This document shows positions 5 to 8,930 of a stretch of 64,000 bases of DNA, one piece after another. The DNA comes from Mesoaciditoga lauensis cd-1655R = DSM 25116 (GTDB lineage Bacteria; Thermotogota; Thermotogae; Mesoaciditogales; Mesoaciditogaceae). The number at the start of each line of letters is the position of its first letter. The first letter of the stretch is position 1. The stretch lies in the NCBI RefSeq assembly GCF_000745455.1, contig NZ_KN050690.1, positions 38,831-102,830 of the forward strand. Reading direction: 5' to 3'. The position numbers were made by a program, and so were the translations under genes. The notes below the pieces were generated by a model. The model had not been told where the DNA came from. It made no database searches and was given only the letters and a program-made list of their open reading frames with translations.

Positions 5-34
5 GTTTCCATTCCTCATAGGTAATATAAAAAC
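5..34 (-). CRISPR. Single CRISPR repeat, leader-proximal end of an array lying outside the window
   Basis: A 30-nt unit begins GTTTCCATTCCTCATAGG and ends with TATAAAAAC on the plus strand. It has the layout of type I-B repeats in thermophilic Firmicutes and Thermotogota, which begin GTTTC and end AAAAC. Read on the minus strand, the last eight bases ATGGAAAC would be the crRNA 5' handle, so the array would be transcribed leftward, away from cas2. Only one repeat and four spacer bases fall inside the window, so repetition cannot be seen here. The assignment rests on the motif and on its position beside cas2. Confidence 0.75.
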
Positions 35-202: not shown

Positions 203-475
203 TCACAACAAAATATCTGGTGTTCCTTTTTCAACACCTATGCTTTCTTTCTTTAGGATTCTTTTAGAATCAAAAATGTACCAAGTAACGCTATCTTCTT
301 CAGAGTTTATTATATTTTCTATTTTGCTCTTTAATATTTTGAACTTTGCTTCCGTTATTTCGCCTTCAAGGAGGGAATTCTGAACCCAAGTGAGGTATTC
401 TCTCGATTTTTTCAGAACCTTATTGACTCTCTTTTCATTTATATCGTAGGCCATTATTACGTACATGACTACCAC
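203..475 (-). CDS. cas2: CRISPR-associated endonuclease Cas2
   Basis: This 90-residue protein matches Cas2 in size and pattern. It starts with a hydrophobic strand ending in the conserved aspartate (YVIMAYDI), followed by a helix and the motif WVQNSLLEGEIT, typical of the Cas2 ferredoxin fold. Cas2 dimers bridge two Cas1 dimers in the complex that inserts new spacers. It is the last gene of the cas operon, overlaps the end of cas1 by 7 bases and abuts the leader. It is probably structural rather than catalytic in integration, as is known for the family. Confidence 0.93.
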   Translation of the reverse strand: MVVMYVIMAYDINEKRVNKVLKKSREYLTWVQNSLLEGEITEAKFKILKSKIENIINSEEDSVTWYIFDSKRILKKESIGVEKGTPDILL

Positions 476-1470
476 TCCATAACAAAAGGCTTGTATTCTT
501 TTTCATTGAGAATATGCTTGATTACCTTGTATGCTTCATGTCTTATAAGGGTTCTATATGAGACGTTGCGCTTTAATTTTGAGTGCTTTATAGTTGCATT
601 AAGATGTGCTTCATAATTTTTTATAAATTTTACTTTTCCTGAATTATCAAGATGAATTCCGCCTTTTACACGTTTAAAATCGCTTTCGGTTATTTCACCT
701 CTATTTATCAATGAGAATATTGTTCTGTCAACTATCACTGGTTTAAATATTTCAGCTATATCGAGATTCAAGGAAAATCTCCTGAAGTTGGAAGAATGAA
801 GATACCCAATTCTTGGATCAAGAGGAGTCTTGTAAATTTCGGTCAAAACTGTTGAGTACATTAGTGCATTACCAAAACTTATCATTGTATTCATAAAGTT
901 TGTAGGTGGCCTTCTTTCACGCGTTCCAATCTTAAATTCTGGTTTTTTGACTATGCTGTCCATTGCCGAATAGTAAACTTCCCTATAATTTCCTTCAATT
1001 GCCATGAGTTCATCAACATTTTCTACCTCCTCAACCTTTGATCTTAACTCTCCCATTTTTTCGATTTGATCATCAACTTTAAATCCCTTTCTTTTGTAGT
1101 AAAAAACAAATCGTTTCATGTTCATCATGGCACCATTTATGAATCTCTTAGCAAGATCAAGTTTCTTTTCTTCTTCAAGATAAAACTTACTTTGATTAAT
1201 TATTGTTATGCCATTTGAATTATATTCATAAGGATAAAATGAGCCTATATATCGTTCATAGTGATTATAGAAATGCATTGGGATTTTCTTAGCAGCAAGA
1301 AATTCAAGAAGTCTTTTATTAATATTCAAATCTCCAAAAATTTTTATTTCAAGTAAATTTTCAACGGGAATGTACTTCGTTCTTTCATTGTTTTCTCCTT
1401 TAAATGCTATTGTGTTTCCTTTTCTGGAAAGAGTTCCACTTTTAAAAATGTAAATTGGATCTCCCATCAT
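469..1470 (-). CDS. cas1: CRISPR-associated integrase Cas1
   Basis: The 333-residue protein has the usual Cas1 length and two-domain layout: an N-terminal beta domain and a helical catalytic domain. The metal-binding residues are visible as Glu in IEGNYR (about residue 160), His in GYLHSS (about 226) and Asp/Glu in LDIAEIFKP (about 240). Cas1 catalyses integration of protospacers at the leader-repeat junction. It overlaps cas4 by 4 bases and cas2 by 7 bases, so the three adaptation genes are translationally coupled. Type I-B assignment follows from the neighbours. Confidence 0.95.
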   Translation of the reverse strand: MMGDPIYIFKSGTLSRKGNTIAFKGENNERTKYIPVENLLEIKIFGDLNINKRLLEFLAAKKIPMHFYNHYERYIGSFYPYEYNSNGITIINQSKFYLEEEKKLDLAKRFINGAMMNMKRFVFYYKRKGFKVDDQIEKMGELRSKVEEVENVDELMAIEGNYREVYYSAMDSIVKKPEFKIGTRERRPPTNFMNTMISFGNALMYSTVLTEIYKTPLDPRIGYLHSSNFRRFSLNLDIAEIFKPVIVDRTIFSLINRGEITESDFKRVKGGIHLDNSGKVKFIKNYEAHLNATIKHSKLKRNVSYRTLIRHEAYKVIKHILNEKEYKPFVMEW

Positions 1471-1979
1471 TCTTCACCTGCCCAACAAAAATCTGAAAAT
1501 CCGCATTTTGCACACCATGGTTTCCACTCGGGTTTAGGAGGTATCTCAAGTTTTTCAAGTTCTTTCACGCCTTTTATAATCTTTTCTATCTCTTTTAAAG
1601 TTTCGGAATTCAGTTCCACATCTATCTTTTTCCTCTCTTTAGGAATCATTATTTGCCCCTTGGCTTCTACTCCAAGATCTTTCAAAATTTTGAGATAGTA
1701 GAGGAGCTGAATACGTGCTCCTTTAACAGAATGGGAGGATTTTTTTATTTCTCCTACTATCGTGCAAATTCCCTCTTCCCAAATCACATCAACTCTAGCC
1801 CCTGGAAGTTCTATTTCTTTTGTTCCTTTTTTAGAATACGAATTTTGATGTAAAAATCTTCCAAGTTCTATATAAGAATTGTCTCTTTCTGGAACAAATC
1901 TTCTTAAAACTAACCATGCTTCTCTCTTGCAAACAGAATAGGCCAATACAGCATATCCCGTTATGATATCCTCATTCAT
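1467..1979 (-). CDS. cas4: CRISPR-associated exonuclease Cas4
   Basis: The 170-residue protein has Cas4's Fe-S cluster cysteines: one near the N terminus (SVCKREAW) and three at the C terminus (PWCAKCGFSDFC). Between them is the RecB-type nuclease core with ARVDVIW and IVGEIKKS supplying the metal-binding Asp and the Glu-x-Lys. Cas4 trims prespacers and checks the PAM so that spacers are inserted in the right orientation. It sits between cas3 and cas1, the usual place in I-B operons, overlapping cas3 by 8 bases and cas1 by 4. Confidence 0.93.
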   Translation of the reverse strand: MNEDIITGYAVLAYSVCKREAWLVLRRFVPERDNSYIELGRFLHQNSYSKKGTKEIELPGARVDVIWEEGICTIVGEIKKSSHSVKGARIQLLYYLKILKDLGVEAKGQIMIPKERKKIDVELNSETLKEIEKIIKGVKELEKLEIPPKPEWKPWCAKCGFSDFCWAGEE

Positions 1980-4134
1980 CTATCTCATCTTCTTTGGGAG
2001 GAATAAAACCACAGTCCATTTTGTAAATCCTATTAATTCCTTTTTTTCTAATGAGCCATATTCCATACTGAAGTTCTTCCACTTCTGATTCAAAATCAGC
2101 AATCATAATTCCATTACTTTTTCTATTCCAAGCTTCCATATATTTTTGGGGAACGTTAATAGCGTAATCTTGTAGCTCTTTCCAAATTCTTTTTCGTTCA
2201 GCGAGATTCTCAAGTGTTCTATCCATATCGAGAAAACTATCAAGAATTTTTTCTATTTTTCCGTTAATATCGACAAAGACGAGAGCTTCTTTTCTATCTT
2301 CAATGAGAGGCTGATAATATCCCCATTCACCATCATTTATCATGTACCATGGCCCTTCCTGTGCCACAGAATTTAAAACTTTCTGATAATACTTTGAAAG
2401 CATTCCTGATATCTCACTCTCAGAAATTTTACTCAGTCCAGAAAGCACTTCCTCTGTTTTTGACAACAACACTTTTCCATAAACAGCAGGTGCAAACGGT
2501 TTTTCGTTTTCATCCACGATTTTTGCAATGGTAACAACCCCAACTTCCCTTTTCATATTACGATTACATCGCCCCGCCACTTGAACAATGCTATCCAAAG
2601 GACCAATATCTCTAAAAACCCATTCGAAATCCAAATCTACGCCCGCTTCGACAACCTGTGTCGATATTAGTGAATGTTTTTTCCCGCTTTTTTCAAGCTC
2701 TTTCAGTTTTTTTATCCTCTTTCGCCTTTCTATAGGAATTACCCATGTTGACAAGAAGAAAACCTCACCTTCAAGCTTTTCTTTATATTTTTCATATGCC
2801 ACAAGAGCGGATTTTTTAGTGTTAAAAACCATAAGTCCTGAGCCTTTGAAATCGATAAAATTTTCTATATCCTCAATTTTCTTTTTGCCGTTAATTATGT
2901 TGTAAAAATGCCTGGAACGAGGCATCCTCACAGTTGGGGCTATTTCTATCCCTTTTACAAGTTGAGGCTGGGTTGCCGTCATCATTATAAAAAATGTTCC
3001 ATACTCCTTAGAAAGAAATTCAAGGGTTTTTCCAAAACCAGACCAATATTTTGAATCCAAAGATTGAGGTTCATCGAGTATCACAGCAGCATCTTTTAGA
3101 CGGTGGAAATCCATTGTATCGTTAGCCTTTGGCGAATAAAGAACTTCCCAAAACTTTGCAAGTGTTGTGACCACCACCGAAGATCTCCAATACCTAAAAT
3201 AAGAAATAAATTTCTCTAAATTTGTCATTTCTTCAGTATCTTTTAATGGGTTCACAAGATGGTGATCCTCTTGAACTTCTTCAAACATTTCTTTTGCAAC
3301 AATCGTATTTTGCTCTACTATGCTTATAAATGGAAGAACGTATATTATTGTCTTCAAATTGAATTTTTCGGAAATTAACGATGCTATTTGAAAACCTGTA
3401 ATGGTTTTTCCGGCACCGGTTGGGAGGGTGAGAGTGTATATTCCCGGCCCCACAATTTTTTCTTTGGCTCTTTTAATTGTGGTATTTCTCACATTTTCCC
3501 TCCATTGAGAAATATTGTTTGAAGGAAATGACGAAATGTACGCTTGCAACTTTTCTGATCTGAATCTTGGCTTTTTAAAATGTATTTTTTCAGAATTAGA
3601 AGCATCGAGTCTGTCGGCAGTTATGAGTATTGAATAGATGGTTTTGAATTTCAACCAATCTTTGATGTCAAATTCTTTTTGAAAAAACTCAAAAGTTAAA
3701 TACATCAGCTCTTCCTTTGAAAGAGTTTTAAATTTTTCGCCAGCAAACTCTTTTATCCGTGGCGAAAAATTCTCTCGAACTTCTGAAGAATTCCAAAAGG
3801 TCTTCGCCTCGCTTAAATCAACTACGGCCGTATGATGCCTTCTTACAATCTCTGCATCCATTAAATTCTTTGTTTCGTTTAGAACGAAGAAAGAGGAAGG
3901 TTCGGAATGTCCAAATCTTCCTCTTCCAGTATGCAGGTAAGTTTGAAATTTTTTATGTGCTTTTGCCACATCATGCATAAGGGCAACATTTTCCACATTC
4001 CCATCTAAATTGTGGAACTTTTTTATTTCTTCAGCTTTTTCAAGAACGCCTTCAAGATGAACGATTAATTCTTTTTTAGGATTATTATGACTGTCTTTAC
4101 CATTCAGGAAACCATACGACCGTATCCTTACCAA
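1972..4134 (-). CDS. cas3: CRISPR-associated helicase-nuclease Cas3
   Basis: In this 720-residue protein an HD nuclease domain comes first (VALMHDVAKAHKKF near residue 52, RRHHTA near 98). A superfamily 2 helicase follows, with Walker A LPTGAGKT (about 239), a DExx motif reading ILDEPQ and motif III MTATQP. Late motifs include QVAGRCNR. Cas3 is recruited by Cascade to unwind and degrade the target strand. The frame opens at 4134 and overlaps the end of cas5 by 38 bases, so a later start is possible, but SHNNPKKELIVHLEGV just after the start resembles the family N terminus. Confidence 0.94.
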   Translation of the reverse strand: MVRIRSYGFLNGKDSHNNPKKELIVHLEGVLEKAEEIKKFHNLDGNVENVALMHDVAKAHKKFQTYLHTGRGRFGHSEPSSFFVLNETKNLMDAEIVRRHHTAVVDLSEAKTFWNSSEVRENFSPRIKEFAGEKFKTLSKEELMYLTFEFFQKEFDIKDWLKFKTIYSILITADRLDASNSEKIHFKKPRFRSEKLQAYISSFPSNNISQWRENVRNTTIKRAKEKIVGPGIYTLTLPTGAGKTITGFQIASLISEKFNLKTIIYVLPFISIVEQNTIVAKEMFEEVQEDHHLVNPLKDTEEMTNLEKFISYFRYWRSSVVVTTLAKFWEVLYSPKANDTMDFHRLKDAAVILDEPQSLDSKYWSGFGKTLEFLSKEYGTFFIMMTATQPQLVKGIEIAPTVRMPRSRHFYNIINGKKKIEDIENFIDFKGSGLMVFNTKKSALVAYEKYKEKLEGEVFFLSTWVIPIERRKRIKKLKELEKSGKKHSLISTQVVEAGVDLDFEWVFRDIGPLDSIVQVAGRCNRNMKREVGVVTIAKIVDENEKPFAPAVYGKVLLSKTEEVLSGLSKISESEISGMLSKYYQKVLNSVAQEGPWYMINDGEWGYYQPLIEDRKEALVFVDINGKIEKILDSFLDMDRTLENLAERKRIWKELQDYAINVPQKYMEAWNRKSNGIMIADFESEVEELQYGIWLIRKKGINRIYKMDCGFIPPKEDEIDE

Positions 4135-4831
4135 CTCTTGACACCTCTAACTTTCCGGCTTTTTTAATGAAGATGCCCTGTCGTTTTTTATTTGCAGAAT
4201 ACAGAACTGTGATGACCCTTTCCAAATTTCTTTCATTATCCATTTTAAACGGGACTATCTCTCTGTGTAATCCCCCGGATTTTAGTACGTCTACTTCTAC
4301 ACCATCTGAAATGTCTTCATCATATGGAACTATCGTCTCCGTTACAAAATTTTCCTTTGAGTTTTCTTTGTTTTCAAATCTTCCCACGTATTTTATTTCA
4401 GCAATAGCATAGGCAACTCCTAAATAAGGCGTGTATACGAAACTGTTTTTAGAAAGATATTTTTCAAGTTGTTCTTCTATTGGGCCATTGACGTATATTC
4501 TATAAGCCGGATCTTTCACAAATTGGTGTTTTATCTGTATATGTGGGTTTTTTTGTGGTTCTTTTACATTCCAAAAGTTAAGTGTAGTTTTGTACCACTT
4601 TATGTCTGAGATGAGTTTTATTCCCACTTTATTTCCAGATATTTTTTCCCAAAAGTTCGCAGAGTAAGCGTAATCCTGCGCACCATTTTCCAAGCCAACA
4701 ATAGCACTTATGATCCCGGCAACAGCACTTGGTGGAGGAAAAGGATATGAAACTGATGATGTTGTTGTGTAAGGTTTTCTGAACATCGCAACGGAACCTG
4801 CCACATCAAAAACGACAGGCAAAAGGATCAC
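4097..4831 (-). CDS. cas5: Cascade subunit Cas5 (type I-B)
   Basis: The 244-residue RAMP protein has the Cas5 N-terminal signature: a beta strand, FDVAGSVAMFRKPYTTT, then SYPFPPPSAVAGIISA. Cas5 caps the 5' end of the crRNA in Cascade and holds the handle. The gene overlaps cas7 by 4 bases upstream and cas3 by 38 bases downstream, so it is translated as part of the interference block. The sequence best fits the I-B (Cas5h) group, which is consistent with Cas7 and Cas8b next to it. Confidence 0.93.
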   Translation of the reverse strand: MILLPVVFDVAGSVAMFRKPYTTTSSVSYPFPPPSAVAGIISAIVGLENGAQDYAYSANFWEKISGNKVGIKLISDIKWYKTTLNFWNVKEPQKNPHIQIKHQFVKDPAYRIYVNGPIEEQLEKYLSKNSFVYTPYLGVAYAIAEIKYVGRFENKENSKENFVTETIVPYDEDISDGVEVDVLKSGGLHREIVPFKMDNERNLERVITVLYSANKKRQGIFIKKAGKLEVSRVGKDTVVWFPEW

Positions 4832-5730
4832 CTCTTTTCGATAGAAACGATCTCACCAAGCGTTTCTAAACTTTCAAGGCCTTTGAATTTCATTTCCTCG
4901 TTAATATTCACTCTCACATGTTCGATCTTGTCTTTGATCTTATTTATGTCCATTGCAAGCTCCGAAATATCCAACACGAAATCTTTTGGGGTTCTTATAG
5001 CGAGCTGTTCTTCTTCACTAAGAGGGGTTCCATCGTCTTTTATGAGCTTTATCTTTTCATCAAGAGACCCTATACGGCTTTCAAAACCTTCTTTATATTC
5101 GATCTCTATCATCATTCTTGAACGATGTTCCATCTTACTTCGTGTTATAAGATTATTTGTGCCATTCCACAAGGCATTTTTCATTTTATCAAGATCATCT
5201 TCCGCTGCCCCGGTTGCCTTTGAAGCGTTTTGATTAGCTATGGCATAAACCGCCATTATGGCAAAGGGAACCTTGTACTCGTTTCTAAAAGTCCTATTTT
5301 CGCTGTTGTCGCTTGTGGCAAAACCTCCCGTACCCTGGACAAAATCGACTTTCACTTTATTTAATGAGCGCGCCCATTTAAACTGTACTGGACCCGTCCA
5401 GGAAAAAGATTCGTTTCCAAGTGCAAACGTGACACCGAAAAGGCGCGCGTCTATACATTTTTCCATGGTTTCTCTGCCTGTGGACGTATTAAGTTGTTTT
5501 TTCAATTCCTCAAATCGGGCTTTAAGTGTTTTTGGCTCTCCGTCTATAAAAACCGCTTCATTTTCTCGAATAAGTTGATCACGAATTGTTCTCTTTATCC
5601 TGACATCTGAAGCAAGAACTTGTTGCGTTTCTTCATCATACCTTGGATAGTTGGCGTTAAGAGGATCTCCGTTGGGGTTACCATCTTTTACTGAATACAC
5701 AAAAAGGATTTCTCTTCTTCCTTTAAACAT
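4828..5730 (-). CDS. cas7: Cascade backbone subunit Cas7 (Csh2 type)
   Basis: The 300-residue protein begins with the diagnostic Csh2/Csd2 motif VKDGNPNGDPLNANYPR and then SDVRIKRTIRDQL. Cas7 polymerises along the crRNA spacer and forms the Cascade backbone. The Csh2 form belongs to type I-B systems. It follows the 135-residue small subunit gene after a 3-base gap and overlaps cas5 by 4 bases. The several subunits needed per complex suggest it should be the best expressed cas gene, but nothing in the sequence shows this directly. Confidence 0.95.
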   Translation of the reverse strand: MFKGRREILFVYSVKDGNPNGDPLNANYPRYDEETQQVLASDVRIKRTIRDQLIRENEAVFIDGEPKTLKARFEELKKQLNTSTGRETMEKCIDARLFGVTFALGNESFSWTGPVQFKWARSLNKVKVDFVQGTGGFATSDNSENRTFRNEYKVPFAIMAVYAIANQNASKATGAAEDDLDKMKNALWNGTNNLITRSKMEHRSRMMIEIEYKEGFESRIGSLDEKIKLIKDDGTPLSEEEQLAIRTPKDFVLDISELAMDINKIKDKIEHVRVNINEEMKFKGLESLETLGEIVSIEKR

Positions 5731-5733
5731 TTA

Positions 5734-6141
5734 TCATTCCTCCTCCTTTTTCTTGAAAATTTTCCCCCAAAAATATTCTTTTGAATTCATAAATGCTACT
5801 GTAAATGCGAAATTACCATCGACGCCTAGATCTTTTGAACCACCATTCAGCATGAGCTCGCCTGCTTTGCTTGCCAGAGCGGATATCATGCTAGAATAAT
5901 CAATCCTGTAGGCCTTTGTGAGTTCAGGGATTCTTGACATATGTTTTTTCAGTTCCCTTAGACTCATCTTTCCAAAGTTGATCTGCTTAAACAATGGCGT
6001 ATCTTCCACTTTTTTCCCGTTTGAATATTCAAGCTGCGCATTTGCAAGTGTGCCAAGAGCTACGCCCGCAAGAAAAACCCCCCTTCCGAAATCTGTTTGA
6101 AGATATTTATCCTGGAGTTTTTCGAAAAAATCTGTGTTCAT
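5734..6141 (-). CDS. Probable stand-alone Cascade small subunit (Cas11b-like)
   Basis: The 135-residue, probably all-helical protein lies between cas8b and cas7. Segments such as GRGVFLAGVALGTLANAQ and FKQINFGKMSLRELKKH recall the C-terminal part of long Cas8b/Csh1 proteins, the region that in I-B systems acts as the small subunit and is usually made by internal translation of cas8b. Here it has its own ATG with a strong ribosome binding site (GGAGGTGAGAAA) overlapping the cas8b stop as ATGA. Cas8b (490) plus this protein (135) gives about the length of a fused Cas8b. The small-subunit role is inferred from position, size and resemblance. Confidence 0.7.
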   Translation of the reverse strand: MNTDFFEKLQDKYLQTDFGRGVFLAGVALGTLANAQLEYSNGKKVEDTPLFKQINFGKMSLRELKKHMSRIPELTKAYRIDYSSMISALASKAGELMLNGGSKDLGVDGNFAFTVAFMNSKEYFWGKIFKKKEEE

Positions 6142-7610
6142 TTTCTCACCTCCGAATTGAAACGAGATATAAAATCGATCATAAGGAACATATCTTTTAT
6201 TTCGGAATCTCTTTTTACACCACTGTTATCTTCTGAACTGTAAAGCAATTTTGGAATAAGTTGTACAAACAATGCCTTTATAGATTCAACATTTATCTTT
6301 TCTTTGTTTAGCAGTTTTCCTATGATTTCAATCGAAAAATCTCTCAAAACCTTCAAATCCGCTTTATTTTTCTTTCCACCATCTTTTCCAAAAGATGTTA
6401 TGGTCTGATATACAAACTTCAAAACCCTACTGAGTTTTTTCTGTTTTTCGTTATCTCCGACAGCATTAAGACTTTCTCTCCAACATTTTTCTATCATTCT
6501 TAAATGGGTAGGTGGTACATCTTCAATCATCAGGTGAACGATTTCTTGAGCGTTGTTTGGTTCCCAAAAAACGAAATGAAAGAGAAGATTTTCATTTTTG
6601 AATTTTGCAAAGCTATCAAACATGTCCTCTATTCCGGTATTTTCTTTGGCCACATACTCTTTGAATTGATTCACAACATTTTTCAAAGACGAAGAAGAAT
6701 CCGACCCTATTATTTCTGGAATGCACCATATCCTCATTCCTGGGATGGTACGCATATCCATAAATTCTCTGTCAAGACGTTCCCTTCCATTTGAAAAAAT
6801 GGCAAAACAATCAGTGCATATTGGAAAGACTTTTGAAGACGAATTTTTGTCCAATGCTGGAAGAAAGCTTTTTTTATCGAAAGTTGCGAAATTGAAAACT
6901 TTATCAAGGTTTACAGTAGAGGCTGTTTCTTTTCCACACATGGAACATTTTACAGTTTTTCCTTTTCCTATTTGAGAATCAATTTTCTCTTTGAAATATT
7001 TCTTGAAAGCTGGGATTTCACCGGGATAAAGAAATTTTTCATCCACATCTACTCCAAAAATTATTAAGTGAGACTCGTTTTCAGAAAAAAGATCAACAAT
7101 TTGATCTATTTCATCTTCCAATCCTTTCATTATCCTATCTACGCTTCCTGCAGTGAAATATCCACTATTCTCGTAATCCATGAGCATCTTATTTTTTATT
7201 TTGTAAAAATGTGTTTTGTTCTCTTTTGACCAGTCTCCTTTTTCACCGATAAAAGTAGCTTTTCTTTTGTTTTCATCTTTTGAAGGTTTCCCGATTTTAA
7301 GGATTGGCGTGAATTTCCATGAAGTATTTGCCCCTACAGGATCACGATACAAGTACTTATTTTTCCACTTTAGAATGTCTTTCTCTCCACTCATGAAGTC
7401 TACTAAATCAATGCTATTCACCCCAAGAACTTTTATAGGATTTTCATTAACATTTTCAACACGTAAGTGTACTCTTATCTCATTGCCTCCCTTTTTATGT
7501 TCATTATTTTTTCCGGTTTTCTCAAATGGAAGTGGTAGTTTTAAAAAAGAACTTAAAGTGTCCCTTTCCTCTTGCTTTCCGAGTTCATACACCGCGTTTA
7601 AGAATCCCAC
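6138..7610 (-). CDS. cas8b: Cascade large subunit Cas8b/Csh1 (TM1802-like)
   Basis: The 490-residue protein contains a zinc-finger pair typical of the TM1802/Csh1 family: CSMCGKETAS (about residue 220) and PICTDCFAIF (about 265). Early segments (FLNAVYELGK, then YRDPVGANTSWKFTP) also fit the family. Cas8b recognises the PAM and recruits Cas3. It is shorter than many Csh1 proteins because the C-terminal helical part appears to be a separate gene downstream. It overlaps cas6 by 13 bases and the small-subunit gene by 4 bases. Confidence 0.88.
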   Translation of the reverse strand: MGFLNAVYELGKQEERDTLSSFLKLPLPFEKTGKNNEHKKGGNEIRVHLRVENVNENPIKVLGVNSIDLVDFMSGEKDILKWKNKYLYRDPVGANTSWKFTPILKIGKPSKDENKRKATFIGEKGDWSKENKTHFYKIKNKMLMDYENSGYFTAGSVDRIMKGLEDEIDQIVDLFSENESHLIIFGVDVDEKFLYPGEIPAFKKYFKEKIDSQIGKGKTVKCSMCGKETASTVNLDKVFNFATFDKKSFLPALDKNSSSKVFPICTDCFAIFSNGRERLDREFMDMRTIPGMRIWCIPEIIGSDSSSSLKNVVNQFKEYVAKENTGIEDMFDSFAKFKNENLLFHFVFWEPNNAQEIVHLMIEDVPPTHLRMIEKCWRESLNAVGDNEKQKKLSRVLKFVYQTITSFGKDGGKKNKADLKVLRDFSIEIIGKLLNKEKINVESIKALFVQLIPKLLYSSEDNSGVKRDSEIKDMFLMIDFISRFNSEVRK

Positions 7611-8329
7611 ATTTTCACCTCCTCAAGCACAATTAGTCCAAACCCCTGAGAATTCTTCGCACCCAAACCCGTGGAAAGAGCAAGATCAAGCATTTTTTTG
7701 TCACCAGTTAACCTGAATTTCCCGCTCCATCCTTTTATCATGAAATTCTTGTAAAAAGTTACCGTTAATTTCTCCTTACCTGAATCCAAGGGTTCAATAT
7801 AAAAATCTTTTGGTTCAATGTTTAAGATATTTGCCTTTTTAAAAAGATTGAGTTTAACAAGCGATATGAAGTCAGGATCTTGTGGAGAATAAAATTGAGT
7901 TTGACCGTTAAAAAGTGTTCTGTAAACGGTGATTGGCGAAAAGGTTTTAACATTTATTGTGGTATTTAAAATATTTTCATAAATAGGGGAAATTTCTGTA
8001 AGAAAGAGTTCGTTGTTTCCAATCCTCAGAATCTGATTCTTTAACATAGAATTCACCATGGCTTCGACAAGATCTTTTATTGGAGAAGAGAAGAAAAGGA
8101 ATAATGGAGATTGAAATTCTATCATTTTATCGCGTATTTTAAATCTTTTAGAAAATAGCCTGGAGAAGGAAAAAAGTTTAAATTGCCTTTTTCGGTAAGG
8201 AAATCCTTTGTCATGAAGATCGGGAAATCGATTTTTTACGAGATTATAAATCATAGATTGAACAATATAATTGTAGGCTATAGGAATCAAAATTGGTTTT
8301 TCAGAAAAAAATGTAAGTCTGACTTTCAT
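7598..8329 (-). CDS. cas6: CRISPR pre-crRNA endoribonuclease Cas6
   Basis: With the start at 8329 the protein has 243 residues and begins MKVRLTFFSEKPILIP. The frame is open 153 bases further upstream, but a strong AAAAAGGGGGG site directly precedes this ATG and the extension does not look like Cas6. The glycine-rich loop near the C terminus (STGLGAKNSQGFG) is the Cas6 RNA-binding signature. Cas6 cuts the array transcript within each repeat to leave an 8-nt 5' handle. It is the first gene of the operon, 59 bases below a good promoter, and overlaps cas8b by 13 bases. Confidence 0.92.
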   Translation of the reverse strand: MKVRLTFFSEKPILIPIAYNYIVQSMIYNLVKNRFPDLHDKGFPYRKRQFKLFSFSRLFSKRFKIRDKMIEFQSPLFLFFSSPIKDLVEAMVNSMLKNQILRIGNNELFLTEISPIYENILNTTINVKTFSPITVYRTLFNGQTQFYSPQDPDFISLVKLNLFKKANILNIEPKDFYIEPLDSGKEKLTVTFYKNFMIKGWSGKFRLTGDKKMLDLALSTGLGAKNSQGFGLIVLEEVKMWDS

Positions 8330-8387
8330 CTTCCCCCCTTTTTGCACTCTCCTATTTACAAACCTGATTGTTATCCCGTACTCCCTT

Positions 8388-8416
8388 ATAATAAACTTTA
8401 AGTTAAATTGAGTCAA
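8388..8416 (-). promoter_or_regulatory. Promoter of the cas operon
   Basis: On the minus strand TTGACT (8416-8411) is followed after exactly 17 bases by TATTAT (8393-8388), a near-consensus sigma-70 type promoter. It lies about 59 bases upstream of the cas6 ATG and would drive the whole nine-gene operon. A fragment of the dispersed repeat (TTGTGCGTGAA) sits directly upstream at about 8433. Confidence 0.75.
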
Positions 8417-8424
8417 CCCTATAC

Positions 8425-8470
8425 TTACCTTGTGCGTGAAGTTTAAGAAATCAACTGGAAAGTCGTCAGT
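8425..8470. repeat. Repeat fragment with TTGTGCGT end motif
   Basis: The stretch reads CTTGTGCGTGAAGTTTAAG followed by AAATCAACTGGAAA. The same string recurs with small changes at about 52217-52260 and, without the TTGTGCGT part, at about 56567-56590. It looks like a decayed end of one of the dispersed elements. It lies just upstream of the cas promoter. Confidence 0.5.
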
Positions 8471-8586
8471 ATTGAAGGTCAAGAGGAAAAACGAATCCTT
8501 CTCGCCATTTTAAGGACACCTTATTCCCGCGTGCGGAAGAAGTGGTGATAAAATCGGCGTAGATAGTTGAATCTTAGTTATGGACT

Positions 8587-8930
8587 TACATTGTGCGTCA
8601 ATGCTACAAAGTATTTCAAAAAAGGATTAAATCTCGCCTTCGAAGTACTTGTCAGAACATATGAGCTCTCCATCTGGAAATTCATAAATATGAGGTTGAG
8701 AGGCACAGGACGTGCCGAGAAAGCGAAGCACTCATGGACGAGTGTCTGAGCGTGCCTCATATTTTGAATTGTAAGATGGAAAAAAGAGCGAATCCGTTCT
8801 GACAGGACTTCGAAAAAATTACCTTGGTCGCTTGGAAAGCGGTAGTAAAATGTCAAAGGATGCTATTATTCGAAATATGTTATCCACACAAATTCGCAGA
8901 GAACTATAAAAAACTCACATTGTGCGTGAG
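8587..8930 (+). repeat. R1 element, long form, copy A
   Basis: About 344 bp, noncoding, and most of the 617-base gap between cas6 and mnmA. It starts with TTGTGCGTCAATGCTACAAA and ends at CTCACATTGTGCGTGAG. Two long arms pair imperfectly: CGAAGTACTTGTCAGAAC (8640) against GTTCTGACAGGACTTCG (8797), and further in AATATGAGG against CCTCATATT. Between them is a core with two small hairpins, GGCAC-AGGAC-GTGCC (8702-8716) and CACTC-ATGGAC-GAGTG (8730-8745). Frames on both strands here are by-products of the repeat. The rest of the gap (8470-8586) shows nothing recognisable. Confidence 0.85.

Follow-up and report, generated by a model that had tools for sequence, protein, structure and literature searches.

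A stand-alone gene that very probably encodes the small subunit Cas11b in a type I-B CRISPR-Cas operon of Mesoaciditoga lauensis

Described small subunits and the operon of this locus

The closest described relative of the locus reported here is the type I-B1 Cas8b/Cas11b (TM1802 family) of Thermotoga maritima, with which it shares the protein family (PF09484), the subunit set and the phylum. According to its description, a 15.1 kDa Cas11 was needed for the co-purification of Cas8b1, and this Cas11 lies inside cas8b1 behind a cryptic internal start that was inactive in E. coli (PMC13199841); here, in contrast, the small protein has its own gene and Cas8b is without the corresponding domain. 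For type I-C, Cas11c is described as an internal product of cas8c, with Cas8c retaining the domain (PMC7684278), and the Cas8b of the present locus again differs in being without it. The same paper assigns two Cas11c to the D. vulgaris complex and places the domain identical to Cas11c at residues 489-612 of D. vulgaris Cas8c (PMC7684278). The type I-B complex of Synechocystis is given as Cas8b1-Cas11b3, with a belly made up of the Cas8b C-terminal domain and three Cas11b (PMC11096372).

Types I-A (Csa5) and I-E (Cse2) encode the small subunit in a separate gene of the cas operon, as would be the case here, but the gene described below is visibly the cut-off end of a cas8b. Two papers attribute a cas11 gene to types I-A and I-E, whereas type I-B is described as being without a stand-alone cas11 and making the protein inside cas8b (PMC13199841, PMC11899642).

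The analysed DNA, called the window throughout, was a stretch of 64,000 nucleotides from M. lauensis cd-1655R = DSM 25116 (contig NZ_KN050690.1, positions 38,831 to 102,830). An operon is located on its minus strand in the order cas6-cas8b-cas11b-cas7-cas5-cas3-cas4-cas1-cas2, followed by a CRISPR repeat at 5-34. With cas3, cas5b, cas6, cas7b (Csh2) and cas8b found together with cas1, cas2 and cas4, the locus is a type I-B CRISPR-Cas system by gene content. The features are as follows (window coordinates):

5..34, plus strand: final repeat of the CRISPR array, most of which is located beyond the window (Rfam CRISPR-DR2, 40.9 bits)
203..475, minus strand: cas2 (PADLOC Cas2b, E 4.2e-32)
469..1470, minus strand: cas1 (PADLOC Cas1b, E 5e-127)
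1467..1979, minus strand: cas4 (PADLOC Cas4b, E 6.8e-49)
1972..4134, minus strand: cas3, HD and helicase (TIGR01587, E 8.3e-34; TIGR01596, E 2.3e-15)
4097..4831, minus strand: cas5b (TIGR02592, E 1.9e-36, over cut-off)
4828..5730, minus strand: cas7b, Csh2 (TIGR02590, E 3.4e-70, over cut-off)
5734..6141, minus strand: putative cas11b, the stand-alone small-subunit gene of 135 aa (PF09484, PADLOC PDLC01518, AlphaFold2 fold)
6138..6141, minus strand: ATGA overlap of the cas11b start and the cas8b stop (direct reading)
6148..6153, minus strand: Shine-Dalgarno GGAGGT of cas11b (direct reading; duplex -15.4 kcal/mol)
6138..7610, minus strand: cas8b without small-subunit domain, 490 aa, GTG start (PF09484, AlphaFold2 model)
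7598..8329, minus strand: cas6, 243 aa when read from 8329, the probable start (TIGR01877, E 2.8e-36)

Both frames, their lengths (490 and 135 aa), their strand and the ATGA overlap had been described in an earlier note on this DNA and were all confirmed, as was the strong ribosome-binding site that it had assigned to the small gene (GGAGGT at 6153-6148, forming a duplex of -15.4 kcal/mol with the 16S tail). Three further copies of the CRISPR repeat were located at L084:6920-7080, beside the window, and part of the array is masked. The listed open reading frame of cas6 (7598-8482) is too long; the PADLOC family match starts at residue 52, which corresponds to the ATG at 8329. The sequence AAGGGGGGAA lies immediately upstream of this ATG, and the start stands behind AAGGGGGG.

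Profile and fold evidence for the two proteins

Judged by the Pfam profile PF09484 (Cas_TM1802), the large and the small protein are consecutive parts of one family, with the 490-aa protein matching model positions 2-467 of 602 (E 5.8e-46) and the 135-aa protein matching positions 491-596 of 602 (E 1.2e-13, 51.2 bits versus a gathering score of 25.1). The 490-aa chain contains the N-terminal and middle profile match of Cas8b (TM1802/Csh1) and reaches only as far as position 467 of the 602-position model, such that the C-terminal small-subunit domain is absent from it and the remainder is encoded by the separate gene. The earlier note had equated the sum of the two lengths with the usual fused length; the sum, 490 + 135 = 625 aa, comes close to it but is slightly longer than the 23 in-group fused frames (500 to 619 aa).

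The small protein was covered end to end by the PADLOC profile PDLC01518 (positions 1-131 of 134, E 1.5e-56). This is a stand-alone model, and PADLOC-DB thus already contains the stand-alone family, yet the label reads Cas8b, CAS-I-B effector large subunit, and not small subunit. Alignment of the 22 small proteins from split loci to 23 fused C-terminal domains using hhalign gave a probability of 99.2 and an E-value of 1.3e-18 (for a single comparison), and homology to the Cas8b C-terminal domain is indicated by PF09484 and hhalign alike. Among the profile matches of the window proteins up to E 10, no Csa5 or Cse2 family was found, weak matches being dropped by the HMMER filters. The large protein scored 93.5 bits with NCBIfam TIGR02556, under the cut-off of 156.95. 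The small protein likewise scored 31.2 bits against NCBIfam, under a curated cut-off of 104.05, and annotation resting on these models may leave both proteins unnamed.

AlphaFold2 gave a helical model of the small protein (six sequences, pLDDT 88.9, pTM 0.86). Using Foldseek, the first 10 rows all came from type I-C Cascades, being Cas8c or chains of Cas11c size (E 0.12-1.5), and using VIA the first 11 rows were Cas8c C-terminal domains or Cas11c-size chains (Z 6.0-7.4), followed by an unrelated row at 3.6. In the VIA alignments the model was matched with Cas8c 490-608 (or 449-582) and with entire small-subunit chains. Scores of this size (Foldseek E at least 0.12, Z below 8) are possible by chance for helical bundles, and what speaks for the match is only the gap down to Z 3.6 and the top rows being all of one kind. 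The small protein is therefore described as having a predicted small-subunit helical-bundle fold, like that of Cas11c and the Cas8c C-terminal domain. The resemblance to Cas11 or Cas8b C-terminal helices on which the earlier note had staked its reading is thereby present in PF09484, in hhalign and in the fold match.

The model of the large protein was poor (pLDDT 66, pTM 0.52); its best five rows were Cas8c, residues 1-485 or 1-449, with Z 8.9-9.4 over 214-237 residues. Type I-C was the best fold match for both window proteins, which jointly cover Cas8c 1-484 (Z 9.4 over 226 residues) and 490-608. Set against the published domain at 489-612, this division places the boundary between the two genes at the small-subunit boundary of Cas8. 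The solved type I-B complex 8h67 was not among the listed rows of the small model and reached only Z 3.9 with the large model. Among PDB sequences, a profile of six small proteins retrieved no Cascade protein (8 weak rows) and a profile of the large protein retrieved 0 rows.

Distribution and origin of the split

The split arrangement with a complete small gene was found in 22 genomes of Thermotogota, Bacillota and one unplaced lineage, or in 23 when a genome with the small gene cut by a contig end is included (G023/L060, kept outside all counts of 22). Matches to PDLC01518 were bimodal, with the 22 split loci at 145-200 bits in frames of 136-206 aa and the others at no more than 40.5 bits and fused, save for contig-end fragments. 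Within the phylum of the window (103 genomes, PDLC01518), six genomes carried the split type (173-189 bits) in open frames 140-167 aa long, and in one more the gene was cut at a contig end; the remaining matches scored at most 40.5 bits and lay, with few exceptions, in frames of 547-622 aa, the frame in G094 being broken. Split relatives obtained from a scan of named genomes were a Thermotoga sp. MAG, two other Thermotogota MAGs, Desulfallas sp. Bu1-1 (Bacillota) and an unplaced bacterium. For the Bacillota relative G103, the split occurred in 4 of 113 genomes of the class and in 12 of 398 genomes of the phylum (G103 included), and for the unplaced-lineage relative G104 in 1 of 9 genomes of the phylum. 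Identity of the small protein among split relatives went down to 46%.

A search of 390 related genomes recovered the split type from six already-known Thermotogota genomes and from no others, and the 3 matches beyond the phylum were all fused. Among 14 control genomes there were 0 matches to PDLC01518 and 3 to PDLC01623, a protein search of plasmids gave no match, and 118 pattern matches in viral contigs included 0 that were confirmed. Independent splits outside the clade were looked for using PDLC01623 in 390 genomes (66 with a match), where the two-piece patterns were doubtful only and were dropped: the pieces lay at contig ends in G091 (L120 runs off the contig), were accompanied by runs of N in G455 (L119) or internal stops in G094, or were two stretches inside one open frame (G050, G351). 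Loci L119-L121 were left out of all analyses. The search profiles represent this Cas8b family, and splits in other Cas8b variants could escape them. The window genome (C17, L069) and G005 (C143, L064) each have, beside the split cas8b, another of type I-B that is fused and belongs to the other clade; the split and fused types thus occur together in one cell line.

Of 26 fused genes, those of the outgroup among them, 25 had their strongest in-frame Shine-Dalgarno with a start 120-165 aa from the end, compared with 3.4 expected, and in the exception (L071) the second-best start lay there. Chance is ruled out by these counts as the source of the internal start; the naive probability, 7.8e-23, takes no account of relatedness and was set aside. 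In the alignment, the internal start and the opening residues of the split gene fall together. At the split junctions a strong Shine-Dalgarno was present in 22 of 22 loci (-10.2 to -20.2 kcal/mol, median -13.6), whereas 2.4% of 723 start triplets within the split large genes reached -10. Internal starts of fused genes were equally strong (median -13.5, n=23, versus -13.6, n=22; Mann-Whitney p 0.45). The proposal in the earlier note that the split matters by giving the small subunit a start signal of its own is not supported by this comparison: fused systems already yield free Cas11b from an equally strong start, so the split adds no new start signal. The change that it brings is the loss of the covalently attached small-subunit copy on Cas8b.

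A maximum-likelihood tree was calculated for 46 loci, the Cas8 trees being made without L056 and L104 (large gene cut). The 20 split loci formed one clade (100/99) that was recovered in 200 of 200 bootstrap trees, the tree needing one state change, and in a quick Cas7 tree of 31 loci, 11 split loci were set apart by one branch (SH-aLRT 94). In the maximum-likelihood tree the split clade is sister to all 23 in-group fused loci, a position which, like the separate small-subunit genes reported for types I-A and I-E (PMC13199841, PMC11899642), would agree with a separate gene being ancestral and the fused relatives derived. Such a history is unlikely, however, as all three outgroup loci carry a fused gene with the internal start at the corresponding place, which would require two fusions versus one fission on a root that is weak. 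The outgroup lies on long branches (for which the tree program warns), and the choice between fission and ancestral separateness therefore rests on parsimony and the internal starts. Given an internal start at the homologous place in fused genes, the natural reading is that the start pre-existed and that one lineage turned it into a gene. The best reading of the aligned genes is thus a split that would have arisen once, through a single ancient fission at an internal start that was already in place; the natural, old division of cas8b with a separately encoded small subunit that the earlier note had proposed is upheld by the 22 genomes and the PF09484 halves.

A free small subunit in the split clade

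The gene at window 6141-5734 is very probably a stand-alone cas11b, in which the internal start of cas8b has been made a true gene start in this clade. In type I-B relatives, one gene yields, via the internal start, both full-length Cas8b with its C-terminal helical domain and that domain alone (Cas11b). In the split clade, cas8b would have gained a stop directly ahead of the internal start, with the downstream part shifted to a different reading frame. Both proteins would then join Cascade, and with no tethered domain on Cas8b, free Cas11b may occupy both the place beside Cas8b and the remaining belly positions that hold the non-target strand, so that each complex would contain roughly one Cas11b more than that of a fused system. 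In the split clade the free form appears to be the only one in which the small subunit is made. We consider it rather more probable than not that PAM recognition (Cas8b) and the belly (identical free Cas11b, one extra per complex) are fully uncoupled, with outputs that are tunable independently, and that this arrangement arose once and spread between phyla.

The sequence of the small protein equals the missing domain with nothing beyond it, and the protein could on that account merely replace the Cas8b C-terminal domain in trans, at one copy per complex and without forming a longer belly. This is decidedly improbable, given that the same domain forms both the Cas8 end and the free copies in the solved I-B and I-C complexes (PMC11096372; PMC7684278), and that a free gene with a strong start is able to supply several copies.

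Production of Cas11b would proceed by translational coupling and from its own ribosome-binding site. Overlap of the two genes at many loci suggests coupling (4 bp in 10 loci, 26 bp in 4, 1 bp in 2, and 11 and 32 bp in one each), and the genes are separated by gaps of 1, 2, 4 and 22 bp in one locus each, so that coupling through overlap is not required. The start codon of the small gene was ATG in 17 loci, TTG in 3 and GTG in 2. Rather than starting in frame within cas8b, the small gene of every one of the 22 loci had a frame, a start codon and a ribosome-binding site of its own, with a frame relation to cas8b of +2 in 13 loci and +1 in 9. At some loci the open stretch of the small frame extends well ahead of the start (28 codons in the window, up to 65), which would agree with programmed frameshifting that still yields some fused Cas8b-Cas11 beside free Cas11. 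We hold this to be highly improbable: the frame relation varies (13 versus 9 loci), the small frame is open only 0-2 codons ahead of the start in L051, L059, L108 and L110, and the genes of L052 are 22 bp apart.

Substitution rates indicate that purifying selection acts on both split genes. The dN/dS of the small gene was 0.066 (L053/L054), 0.097 (L058/L059) and 0.062 (L055/L058) in the three pairs with computable dS, dS being saturated in 5 of 16 gene pairs, including the small gene of the window versus L050 (pS 0.83, pN 0.111). Known type I-B relatives are fused, including the second cas8b of the window genome, but an error of sequencing or assembly, or a frameshift of recent date in a cas8b that is otherwise fused, is next to inconceivable in view of the 22 split genomes with two frame relations, varied junctions and a ribosome-binding site each, the bimodal PDLC01518 matches and the selection on both genes, with genome number and selection ruling out a sequencing error or pseudogene outright. 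The close relatives that were found (79-51% identical) are split as well and not uninterrupted, against the frameshift that the earlier note had allowed for.

The family is already known at the profile level (PADLOC, under the other label); what appears to be new is its nature as a stand-alone small subunit, together with the single origin and the link with the internal start. A two-piece Cas8b of C. thermocellum was reportedly treated by Richter et al. 2017. No description of a stand-alone cas11b gene was found in the open-access (PMC) literature, subscription papers lying outside the scope of the search. With a stand-alone cas11b, the whole clade departs from the published statement that type I-B has none. 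It would offer a clean genetic setting, absent in fused systems, in which cas11 can be deleted, mutated or titrated with cas8 untouched, and in which one can ask if the tethered Cas8 copy is needed for assembly, R-loop locking or Cas3 recruitment. It would also provide a natural, ready-made Cas11 gene for expression, which the T. maritima system lacked in E. coli, and the clade would document a gene born out of an internal translation start.

Two further observations were made. In fused cas8b genes (e.g., L061, L063, L075, L080), a Lys/Gly-Gly stretch a few residues ahead of the internal start is the ribosome-binding site as it appears in the protein, and could help to find hidden cas11 starts. 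Separately, a dispersed repeat of ~75-90 bp that opens with CTCACATTGTGCGTCAATGTTACAAGG was located at 8585-8670 and 48538 of the window and at L084:3605-3700 and 6106-6189. In its own genome, 41 copies were counted among the matches listed, at 85-94% identity (262 first-look candidates, 40 scored), and its core had five partial matches within the window versus 0.05 expected; the repeat may be a small mobile or REP-like element.
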